A stretch of 64,000 bases of DNA from an uncultured Schlesneria sp. (GTDB lineage Bacteria; Planctomycetota; Planctomycetia; Planctomycetales; Planctomycetaceae): positions 1-64,000 of the forward strand of contig CAIOKO010000242.1 in NCBI GenBank assembly GCA_903858935.1, written 5' to 3'. The translations under genes were made by a program, and so were the position numbers. The notes beneath the pieces were generated by a model, which worked only from the letters and a program-made list of their open reading frames with translations, made no database searches and was not told where the DNA came from. The stretch's first letter is position 1. Every line of letters begins with the position of its first letter. Shown piece by piece: positions 35,755-39,062 of this stretch.

Positions 35755-37041
35755 CTATGCCTGGGGGGAAGTGTAATCGGTTAGTGATTCGGGTTTCATG
35801 GTGATGCTGTAGCCGGGTGCCGTTGGCGGGACGTAGTGTCCGTTTCGCATGACGACTGGATTGATGAAATGCTCATGCAGATGTCCGGCGTATTCGCAGA
35901 GCCGGTTCTCCAGTGAACCACTGACGCAGATGTAATCGATCATCGCCAGGTGCTGCACATATTCGCAAAGTCCGACGCCTCCTGCGTGAGGACAGACTGG
36001 AATGTTGAACTTGGCCGCCAGCAGCAGGATCGAAAGAACTTCATTTACGCCGCCGACTCGGCAGCTATCGATCTGACAGACTCCGATCGCTCCCGATTGA
36101 AGAAACTGTTTGAACATAATCCGGTTTGCGCAATGTTCGCCGGTGGCAACCTGGATCGGAGCGACCGCTTTGGCGATCGCAAGATGGCCCAGCACGTCGT
36201 CAGGGCTGGTAGGTTCTTCAATGAACCAGGGCTTGAACTGAGCCAATGACTTCATCCATTCGATCGCCTGATTGACTTCCCAGACTTGATTGGCGTCGAC
36301 CATCAGTCGTCGTTCCCAGCCGATCTCTTCGCGAATGATGCGGCAGCGTCGGATATCATCGTTGAGGTCACGCCCGACTTTGATTTTGAAGACGTTCCAG
36401 CCCTGAGCCAGGCAATCACGACAGAGTCGTCTCAGCTTGTCATCGTCATAACCGAGCCAACCGGCGGAGGTCGTGTAGGCGGGATATCCATCATTTTTAA
36501 GGTGAGCGATCCGATCAGCTTTCGTCGATTCAATTCTCTTCAGGATTTGAACCGCTTCAGCGGGAGTCAGCACATCCGTCAGATACCGGAAATCTACACA
36601 ACCAACAAATTGTTCCGGCGTCAGATCGGCCACAAGCCGCCACAACGGTTTCCCTTCGATCTTCGCCCAGAGATCCCACACGGCATTTACGACGGCTGCT
36701 GTCGCCAGATGAATCACACCTTTTTCCGGCCCAACCCAGCGAAGCTGGCTGTCGCCAGTGATATGCCGCCAGAATCCCGCCATGTCTGAAGTAAATGATT
36801 CCAGCGTCCGTCCGACAACGAGGGGAGCGAGCGCCTCAATCGCCGCAACACACAGTTCGTTCCCACGTCCAATCGTAAACGTCATCCCATGCCCTGCCGC
36901 CTGATCAGGTCGATCGGTCTCAAGTATGACATAGGCTGCAGAATAATCGGGGTCTGGATTCATGGCATCAGAGCCGTCCAGCATCTTCGAAGTTGGAAAT
37001 CGAATGTCATGAGCAGTCAATCGAGTAATGATAGTGGGCAT
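35755..37041 (-). CDS. Enolase superfamily L-fuconate dehydratase
   Basis: ITRLTAHDIRFPTSKMLDGSDAMNPDPDYSAAYVILETD, KIKVGRDLNDDIRR, MVDANQVWEV, WFIEEPTSPDDVLGH, CPHAGGVGLCEYVQH. Confidence 0.92.
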   Translation of the reverse strand: MPTIITRLTAHDIRFPTSKMLDGSDAMNPDPDYSAAYVILETDRPDQAAGHGMTFTIGRGNELCVAAIEALAPLVVGRTLESFTSDMAGFWRHITGDSQLRWVGPEKGVIHLATAAVVNAVWDLWAKIEGKPLWRLVADLTPEQFVGCVDFRYLTDVLTPAEAVQILKRIESTKADRIAHLKNDGYPAYTTSAGWLGYDDDKLRRLCRDCLAQGWNVFKIKVGRDLNDDIRRCRIIREEIGWERRLMVDANQVWEVNQAIEWMKSLAQFKPWFIEEPTSPDDVLGHLAIAKAVAPIQVATGEHCANRIMFKQFLQSGAIGVCQIDSCRVGGVNEVLSILLLAAKFNIPVCPHAGGVGLCEYVQHLAMIDYICVSGSLENRLCEYAGHLHEHFINPVVMRNGHYVPPTAPGYSITMKPESLTDYTSPQA

Positions 37042-37209
37042 TAGATTTTGTGGTTCTATTTGGGTGTCGGAAAAATTTGTGCGTGGCTGTTTTTGTACCC
37101 GGTCGGAACTCGGATAGTAATCGGCAATGTGTTCCGATTCCAAGGTCCGCGCCCGGACCAGCCGATTCTTGCGCGCATTGACCACGCGAGCCGGGGAAAT
37201 TCCGGGTTA

Positions 37210-37238
37210 TTGACCGATTGGGGATTGGGTAGTATCAT
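37210..37238 (+). promoter_or_regulatory. Candidate sigma70-type promoter of the leu leader
   Basis: TTGACC - 17 nt - TATCAT. Confidence 0.5.
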
Positions 37239-37308
37239 CTTGAAACCGTGAGAAAACTATTTTTTACGGGTCGAACCTTTTTCGGCGAAGATTGTCCAAG
37301 CTGTTACT

Positions 37309-37353
37309 ATGACATTTGACTCGTTCCTCCTACTGGGCCTGCTTACTCGCTGA
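37309..37353 (+). CDS. Leucine-rich leader peptide (attenuation), MTFDSFLLLGLLTR
   Basis: ATG ACA TTT GAC TCG TTC CTC CTA CTG GGC CTG CTT ACT CGC TGA; 5 Leu of 14, followed by antiterminator/terminator pair and leuA. Confidence 0.8.
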   Translation: MTFDSFLLLGLLTR

Positions 37354-37356
37354 GAT

Positions 37357-37430
37357 GCGAGGTTCAGGGAACGTCTAGTCGCACTGATGCACAAGTTCAC
37401 CCTGAGACCTCGCGGTCTCGGGGTTTTTTT
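37357..37430 (+). promoter_or_regulatory. leuA transcription attenuator (antiterminator plus intrinsic terminator)
   Basis: GCGAGGTTCAGGG (37357-37369) complements CCCTGAGACCTCGC (37400-37413) with one bulge; competing terminator CCCTGAGACC-TCGC-GGTCTCGGGG-TTTTTTT (37400-37430). Confidence 0.82.
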
Positions 37431-37472
37431 GTTTGTATTTCACTCCCTTTCACCTTTGAGTGTGAACCCATT

Positions 37473-39062
37473 ATGGCTGACAACGTCATTATCTTCGACA
37501 CCACGCTTCGCGATGGCGAACAATCTCCCGGTTGCAGCATGACGACTCCTGAAAAACTGAAGGTCGCTGAAGCTCTTGTGGAACTGGGGGTCGATGTCAT
37601 CGAGGCGGGTTTTCCAATCACTTCGCCTGGTGATTTCGAAGCCGTTCGGGCGGTCGCCCAGAAGTTTGGCGACCGAGCGACGATTTGCGGGTTGGCTCGC
37701 TGTCGGAAGAATGACATTGAGCGAGCTGGTGAGGCCTTACGCGGTATCGCTCGGCCCCGAATTCATGTTTTTCTTGCTACGAGTCCAATTCATCGTGAAT
37801 TTAAACTCAAGATGGCCGAACGGGAAATCGTCAAAGCGGCTGTCGAGCACGTTCAGTTTGCGAAGACGTTCTGCGATGACATTGAATTCTCACCCGAAGA
37901 TGCCGCTCGGACGGAACTCGACTTTCTCACTGAAGTTGTTGAGAAGGCGATTGAGGCCGGGGCGACGACGGTCAATATTCCCGACACGGTCGGGTATGCC
38001 ACGCCAAATCATTACTTCAAAGTGATCTCGCACCTCAAGCAGCATGTTTCGAACATCCATAAAGCGGTCATCAGCACGCACTGTCATAACGACCTTGGTC
38101 TGGCGGTCGCGAACAGTCTCGCTGCGGTGGAAGCAGGGGCACGACAGGTCGAATGCACGATTAATGGCTTGGGCGAACGAGCGGGGAACGCGGCACTCGA
38201 AGAAATCGTGATGGCGCTCAAGACTCGCAAGGACTATTACGGGGTTGAGACACGGATCAATACGCCGAAGCTTTGCAGTGCCAGCCGGCTGGTCTCGAGC
38301 ATTACTGGGATGCTTGTTCAACGGAACAAAGCGATTGTCGGACAGAATGCGTTCGCACACGAAGCGGGGATTCATCAGGATGGAATTCTTAAGGAACGAA
38401 CCACGTATGAGATCATGCGAGCGGAAGACGTCGGGTATGTGGGCGTGAATCTCGTTCTGGGTAAGCATAGCGGTCGGGCTGCAATTCGGTCTCACGTGCT
38501 TCAATTGGGATATCAGCTCGATGAAGCTCAGCTTGAGACGGTTTATAAAGACTTTATTGCGCTCGCCGATAAGAAGAAGAACATCTACGACGCGGACATT
38601 GTGGCGTTGATCGAGAATCGGATGAATGTCTCGATGGATCGCTGGAAGTTGGTTCGCTTTCATATTGCGGCGGGGACGGGAACGATTCCAACTGCGACGG
38701 TTGAATTGCAGGATGAATTGTCAAAGGGACAGCCCACGGCCGATTTGAATGGCGGAGCGGATGAGGCAGTGAGAACATTCAAAGACGCCGCGATTGGAGA
38801 CGGACCGGTCGACGCTGTCTGCAAGGCGATGGAACGGATTGTCGGCGTTACTGCGGAGCTGAAGGACTATCAGGTTCGTGCCGTATCGGGTGGTGAAGAT
38901 GCTCAGGGGGAGGCGTCGGTAGCCATTAATTACCAGGGTCGCCGGTATCATGGGAAAGCGGTCAGCACCGACGTGATTGAAGCGAGTGCTCTGGCCTACC
39001 TTAAAGCATTAAACAAGGCAGTCAGCGATCAAGTTGTCGAGAAAGCTCCTCCTGGGGTTTGA
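37473..39062 (+). CDS. leuA: 2-isopropylmalate synthase
   Basis: VIIFDTTLRDGEQSPGCSMTTPEKLKVAEALVELGVDVIEAGFP, STHCHNDLGLAVANSLAAVEAGARQVECTINGLGERAGN, C-terminal regulatory domain. Confidence 0.98.
   Translation: MADNVIIFDTTLRDGEQSPGCSMTTPEKLKVAEALVELGVDVIEAGFPITSPGDFEAVRAVAQKFGDRATICGLARCRKNDIERAGEALRGIARPRIHVFLATSPIHREFKLKMAEREIVKAAVEHVQFAKTFCDDIEFSPEDAARTELDFLTEVVEKAIEAGATTVNIPDTVGYATPNHYFKVISHLKQHVSNIHKAVISTHCHNDLGLAVANSLAAVEAGARQVECTINGLGERAGNAALEEIVMALKTRKDYYGVETRINTPKLCSASRLVSSITGMLVQRNKAIVGQNAFAHEAGIHQDGILKERTTYEIMRAEDVGYVGVNLVLGKHSGRAAIRSHVLQLGYQLDEAQLETVYKDFIALADKKKNIYDADIVALIENRMNVSMDRWKLVRFHIAAGTGTIPTATVELQDELSKGQPTADLNGGADEAVRTFKDAAIGDGPVDAVCKAMERIVGVTAELKDYQVRAVSGGEDAQGEASVAINYQGRRYHGKAVSTDVIEASALAYLKALNKAVSDQVVEKAPPGV

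Follow-up and report, generated by a model that had tools for sequence, protein, structure and literature searches.

A putative leucine attenuator upstream of leuA

In the window, by which we mean the whole 64-kb stretch of planctomycete DNA analysed here, the 2-isopropylmalate synthase gene leuA is very probably controlled by a ribosome-mediated transcription attenuator that would sense charged leucyl-tRNA. An earlier note on this DNA had proposed a leucine leader-peptide attenuator at this locus, and on the sequences compared here this is by far the best reading: the leucine codons of the leader are conserved with synonymous changes, the two arms of the antiterminator (the 2:3 pairing) co-evolve, the terminator shows covariation, and a corresponding isoleucine leader precedes the citramalate synthase gene cimA. 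That isoleucine counterpart, together with the recurrence of the leuA element over much of the phylum, had been missed by the note.

Reading the region base by base placed every element of the earlier description where it had been reported, all of them on the plus strand. A sigma-70-type promoter (37210-37238) consists of TTGACC (37210-37215) and TATCAT (37233-37238) with 17 nucleotides between them. It is followed by a short leader ORF at 37309-37353 with 14 codons (M T F D S F L L L G L L T R stop), five of which are leucine codons: CTC CTA CTG at 37327-37335 and, after a GGC, CTG CTT at 37339-37344. Segment 2, the 5' arm of the antiterminator (GCGAGGTTCAGGG, 37357-37369), is complementary to segment 3 (CCCTGAGACCTCGC, 37400-37413), and the sequence, its folding and its covariation all identify segment 3 as common to the antiterminator and the terminator. 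The latter, ACCCTGAGACC-TCGC-GGTCTCGGGGT plus a U run (37399-37430, -20.0 kcal/mol), is an intrinsic terminator located between the leader ORF and leuA, with GGTCTCGGGG at 37414-37423 and then seven T at 37424-37430. The regulated gene itself occupies 37473-39062 (ATG at 37473, 529 aa), and its identity as leuA is given by TIGR00973 with 700.6 bits against a cut-off of 598.7. From the leader stop codon to leuA there are 119 nt, with this strong terminator in between.

The ORF on the 5' side of the leuA locus lies on the opposite strand (35755-37185, minus), so the terminator at 37399-37430 closes no plus-strand gene. With five leucines in 12 codons, the ORF ending before this terminator-like site is the most leucine-dense of any such ORF in the 64-kb window, the other sites having zero to four. 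As the earlier note had remarked, the leader has no strong Shine-Dalgarno sequence; no clear one precedes its ORF. A GATTGTCC-like motif at 37290-37297, about 12-19 bases 5' of the leader ATG, recurs in many members of the genus and is not a Shine-Dalgarno sequence.

From this arrangement we infer leader translation, ribosome stalling, termination, read-through, a response to leucine and the use of the ribosome footprint as a ruler, in the following way. RNA polymerase would start downstream of 37238 and transcribe the leader, and a ribosome would translate MTFDSFLLLGLLTR. When leucyl-tRNA is short, the ribosome would stall on the CUN codons (37327-37344) and stay upstream of segment 2 (37357-37369), leaving segment 2 free to pair with segment 3, and the polymerase would read on into leuA. 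When leucine is plentiful, the ribosome would reach the stop codon (37351) and its footprint would cover the start of segment 2, so that the 3:4 pairing would form and transcription would end at about 37430.

Folding and co-evolution of the alternative structures

The alternation between antiterminator and terminator described in the earlier note was reproduced when subsegments of the leader were folded. Taken alone, 37357-37414 adopts the antiterminator fold (-26.8 kcal/mol, z -4.7), while 37364-37430, from which the start of segment 2 has been removed as it would be by a ribosome at the stop codon, adopts the terminator fold. Without a ribosome, the terminator is preferred over 37340-37432 (-37.5 kcal/mol). 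The complementarity between segments 2 and 3 in the window exceeds that of 199 of 200 spacer shuffles.

Among 13 members of the genus, the terminator has 11 pairs with 143 of 143 cells paired, three of these pairs show compensatory changes, and the covariation score was reached by none of 500 shuffles. Column-wise covariation for the 2:3 pairing is weak, with one pair in the genus showing changes on both sides, partly because the bulge moves between lineages. Because of these moving bulges, the column-wise analysis was replaced by a swap test, in which the stability of each native 2:3 duplex was compared with that of duplexes whose segments had been exchanged among species, over 5000 permutations. 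For 40 members of the family, native duplexes averaged -19.7 kcal/mol versus -17.0 kcal/mol for swapped ones, and none of the 5000 permutations did as well; for 14 sequences from other families, the values were -17.9 and -14.6 kcal/mol, respectively, and two of 5000 permutations equalled this. When confined to the genus, the test is suggestive only (356/5000), because the arms hardly vary there. The comparison at the level of sequence thus has segments 2 and 3, and likewise 3 and 4, co-evolving, and the fold of 37357-37414 taken with the co-evolution of the arms in the family points to an antiterminator that is mutually exclusive with the terminator.

The status of a protector hairpin is different. 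The hairpin CTCGC-TGAGAT-GCGAG around the stop codon (37346-37361, arms 37346-37350 and 37357-37361), pointed out in the earlier note and a candidate 1:2 protector, is present in the sequence, but its role is putative and support from co-evolution did not materialize. The minimum-energy fold contains an alternative 1:2 stem between the leader start (37318-37327) and 37368-37380, which failed on covariation and was rejected. Both candidate protector or pause hairpins are able to form and neither carries a co-evolution signal, leaving a classical segment 1 in the leuA leader possible but unproven.

Leader codons and their distance from the antiterminator

In the genus alignment, the leader ORF is kept in all 13 aligned members, with a conserved start and with TGA as the stop in each. 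Two leucine columns read CTN in 13 of 13 members, with between two and four kinds of third base. Variability in the genus leaders is highest at third codon positions, and the residues of the leader peptide other than leucine show no conservation. The choice among leucine codons is also distinctive. CTA makes up 23 of the 64 leucine codons of the genus leaders (36%), compared with 3.5% across 36 long ORFs from the window and 0.2% across the leuA genes of the genus, and TTA and TTG together account for none of the 64 versus 31% in window genes, although the leader sequences are related and nominal p-values for this codon bias therefore overstate the case. The CTA excess recurs in leaders from the rest of the family (22%) and from other families (19%). 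This preference matches the use of rare CUA in the leu attenuator of Salmonella, where sensitivity falls once CUA is replaced by CUG (work of Carter et al., cited in PMC1183508).

The spacing of these codons was also compared. Counted from the first base of the respective codon, segment 2 of the genus members starts 13-18 nt past the last leucine codon and 4-8 nt past the stop. Elsewhere in the family, the leader stop mostly falls within segment 2, typically as GGGAGGTCTTAGG with TAG as the stop, and the median distance from the last leucine codon to segment 2 is 12 nt, compared with 15 nt in the genus. The footprint of a ribosome extends about 12 nt beyond the A-site base. With the stop codon inside segment 2 or a few bases ahead of it, as in nearly all family members, a ribosome at the stop would therefore mask at least the beginning of this segment, and one stalled at the leucine codons would leave it largely free. 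Spacing alone can thus, in principle, run the switch without a protector hairpin.

Distribution among planctomycetes

The leuA upstream regions compared here represent the genus and its family, further families within the class, and other parts of the phylum. Under a strict criterion (at least five leucines within 12 codons, with the ORF ending no more than 75 nt before a strong terminator), 40 of 80 planctomycete leuA upstream regions were positive versus 2 of 400 dinucleotide shuffles, with the caveat that the sequences in these comparative counts are related and the counts hence not independent. Shuffles in which the terminator was kept gave 5 of 265, and replacing leucine in the criterion with isoleucine, valine, alanine, serine or arginine gave zero or one of 80. 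In each of the 13 genus members examined, and in the majority of family members, a promoter of the form TTGACC/TTGTCC-N17/18-TAnnnT precedes the leader ATG by 33-71 bases.

Searching with an RNA model of the element gave exactly one match, at leuA, in the genome to which the window belongs; of the 81 family genomes, 37 contained matches. These matches supplied 28 further family regions, 27 of which have a leucine-rich ORF before a terminator; in most of the 28, the retrieved stretch also took in the start of leuA. The earlier note had staked its reading beforehand on conservation in close relatives, and the leucine run and the 2:3 and 3:4 stems all proved to be conserved.

Beyond the family the picture is more varied. 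A named Gemmataceae genome (L170) has a leucine leader, MGMRATELLLRELLLLLSRQARDRHA, with a terminator or terminator-like hairpin. The same combination is seen, less clearly, in Limnoglobus (L163) and in family f3 (L032 and L037), and also in Pirellulaceae (L167) and an unclassified planctomycete (L164). The leuA loci L170, L163, L032 and L037 belong to Gemmataceae or probable Gemmataceae. One genus member with a smaller genome (G009, locus L014) lacks both leader and terminator at leuA, which is a natural loss of the element, and two paralogues first grouped with leuA (L043 and L044) have no leader. No element was detectable at leuA in the Brocadiales examined (Candidatus Brocadia and Loosdrechtia; L171 and L176). 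As some distant lineages, the Brocadiales being one example, are without a detectable element, we do not claim the leuA attenuator for the whole phylum.

An isoleucine leader at cimA

A paralogue of leuA (G000:C260:26535-28085, minus strand) is the citramalate synthase gene cimA, with 678.6 bits to TIGR00977 against a cut-off of 450. Upstream of cimA (L111 and L041) there is an isoleucine-rich leader, MSFPYSGRSLHVSTAIIAARIIVISIIGDV (ending in ..AIIAARIIVISIIGDV and a stop codon), together with an intrinsic terminator, and this combination is conserved in the genus and recurs in other families. In the strict test applied to cimA, isoleucine scored in 10 of 30 regions versus none of 150 shuffles, and leucine in 1 of 30. 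With leucine codons at leuA and isoleucine codons at cimA, the codons in front of each synthase gene specify the end product of that gene. Other operons (ilvB, hisG and trpE) were inspected one by one, and no leader with a terminator was seen at any of them, ilvB giving 0 of 17 in the strict test. The planctomycete ilvB regions (L116-L136) have neither leader peptide nor terminator, even though ilvB serves all branched-chain amino acids.

Alternative explanations

One alternative is that an RNA-binding protein or a small ligand switches between the RNA structures, in the manner of a riboswitch or T-box, with the leucine ORF being incidental or secondary, a view that has been argued for the actinobacterial LEU element. 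The genus spacer between segments 2 and 3 (GGGAACGTC..GTCGCA..TGCACAAGTTCA) is conserved beyond what a plain spacer would need, and in Actinobacteria changed leucine codons in the leuA leader did not act as classical attenuation predicts (PMC1262725). Outside the genus, however, the spacer is not conserved whereas the leucine run is, no Rfam family (T-box included) matches, and such a switch offers no explanation for leucine at leuA and isoleucine at cimA; we regard it as improbable. The spacer (37367-37399, GGGAACGTCTAGTCGCA..GATGCACAAGTTCA) is in its own right strongly conserved in the genus and not outside it, and may possibly be a pause site or a protein site.

Still less probable is that the leucine ORF acts through translation coupling, reinitiation or nascent-peptide arrest, with a constitutive or incidental terminator. 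Short leader ORFs do peak close before genes in bacteria including Planctomycetes, which has been read as reinitiation (PMC4833913), but here the 119 nt between the leader stop and leuA, with a strong terminator intervening, speak against this reading, and under it an antiterminator that co-evolves with a terminator arm would be without a role. Unlike arrest peptides, moreover, the leader is not conserved in its non-leucine sequence. As for a chance leucine-rich ORF near the ordinary terminator of a small RNA or an upstream unit, leucine is more common than any other residue and short ORFs abound; yet the excess over shuffles (40/80 against 2/400), the conservation over genera and families and the lack of a plus-strand gene upstream to terminate leave this scarcely credible, and we consider it refuted by the comparative data on shuffles and conservation.

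Transcription-translation coupling

Ribosome-mediated attenuation works only with a ribosome close behind RNA polymerase on the nascent RNA. For some planctomycetes (Gemmata), a spatial separation of transcription and translation has been claimed, and this claim is disputed. We lean towards the view that attenuation by leucine at leuA and by isoleucine at cimA is an old, vertically kept control of Planctomycetota, Gemmataceae included; since such control can operate only if the leader is translated by a ribosome just behind the polymerase that is making it, it would imply transcription-translation coupling. A conserved attenuator in Gemmataceae, if true, would argue for coupling at these genes at least, and the Gemmataceae leucine leaders with terminators make the debate over separation directly testable.

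Comparison with known systems

An Rfam search at gathering score returned no relevant family, nor did a permissive search of 37140-37500 (E up to 5); the Leu_leader model RF00512 and the T-box model were without a match at either threshold. Full-text searches, in which most subscription papers fell outside coverage, turned up no account of amino acid attenuation in Planctomycetes and none of a citramalate synthase attenuator. PMC4833913, on reinitiation, counts leader ORFs in Planctomycetes, and its available part does not describe an attenuator. Priority for planctomycete attenuation cannot be asserted on this basis. To our knowledge, an isoleucine attenuator on the citramalate route has not been reported before.

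The closest likeness is to the leu (leuL) attenuator of Salmonella and E. coli, which shares leader leucine codons including rare CUA, an antiterminator and terminator that exclude each other, and leuA as the first gene. It differs in that most planctomycete versions place the leader stop inside segment 2, that a separate protector stem is unsupported in them, and that they belong to another phylum. The actinobacterial LEU element and leuS leader (PMC1262725) likewise have leader leucine codons before leuA (LEU) or leuS (a classical candidate). The LEU element, compared here by description, is a pseudoknot whose mutations argue against classical attenuation (PMC1262725), whereas the planctomycete element appears to be a plain 2:3/3:4 switch with an intrinsic terminator. 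Leaders for isoleucine, valine and leucine before ilvB and ilvGMEDA resemble it in combining branched-chain codons with an intrinsic terminator, but ilvB in the planctomycetes compared here goes without any and the isoleucine leader stands before cimA instead. T-box leaders are also sensors of tRNA charging that act before amino acid genes by terminator/antiterminator switching; in contrast to them, the planctomycete element matches no T-box model and its sensing would need a translated ORF. With the leucine leader-peptide attenuator proposed here, the range of classical ribosome-mediated attenuation would come to include Planctomycetota, and the pairing of two sensors, leucine at leuA and isoleucine at cimA, makes the codon logic self-evident. 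The mechanism is classical in kind, and what is added to it is the phylum, the cimA target and the layout with the stop codon in segment 2.
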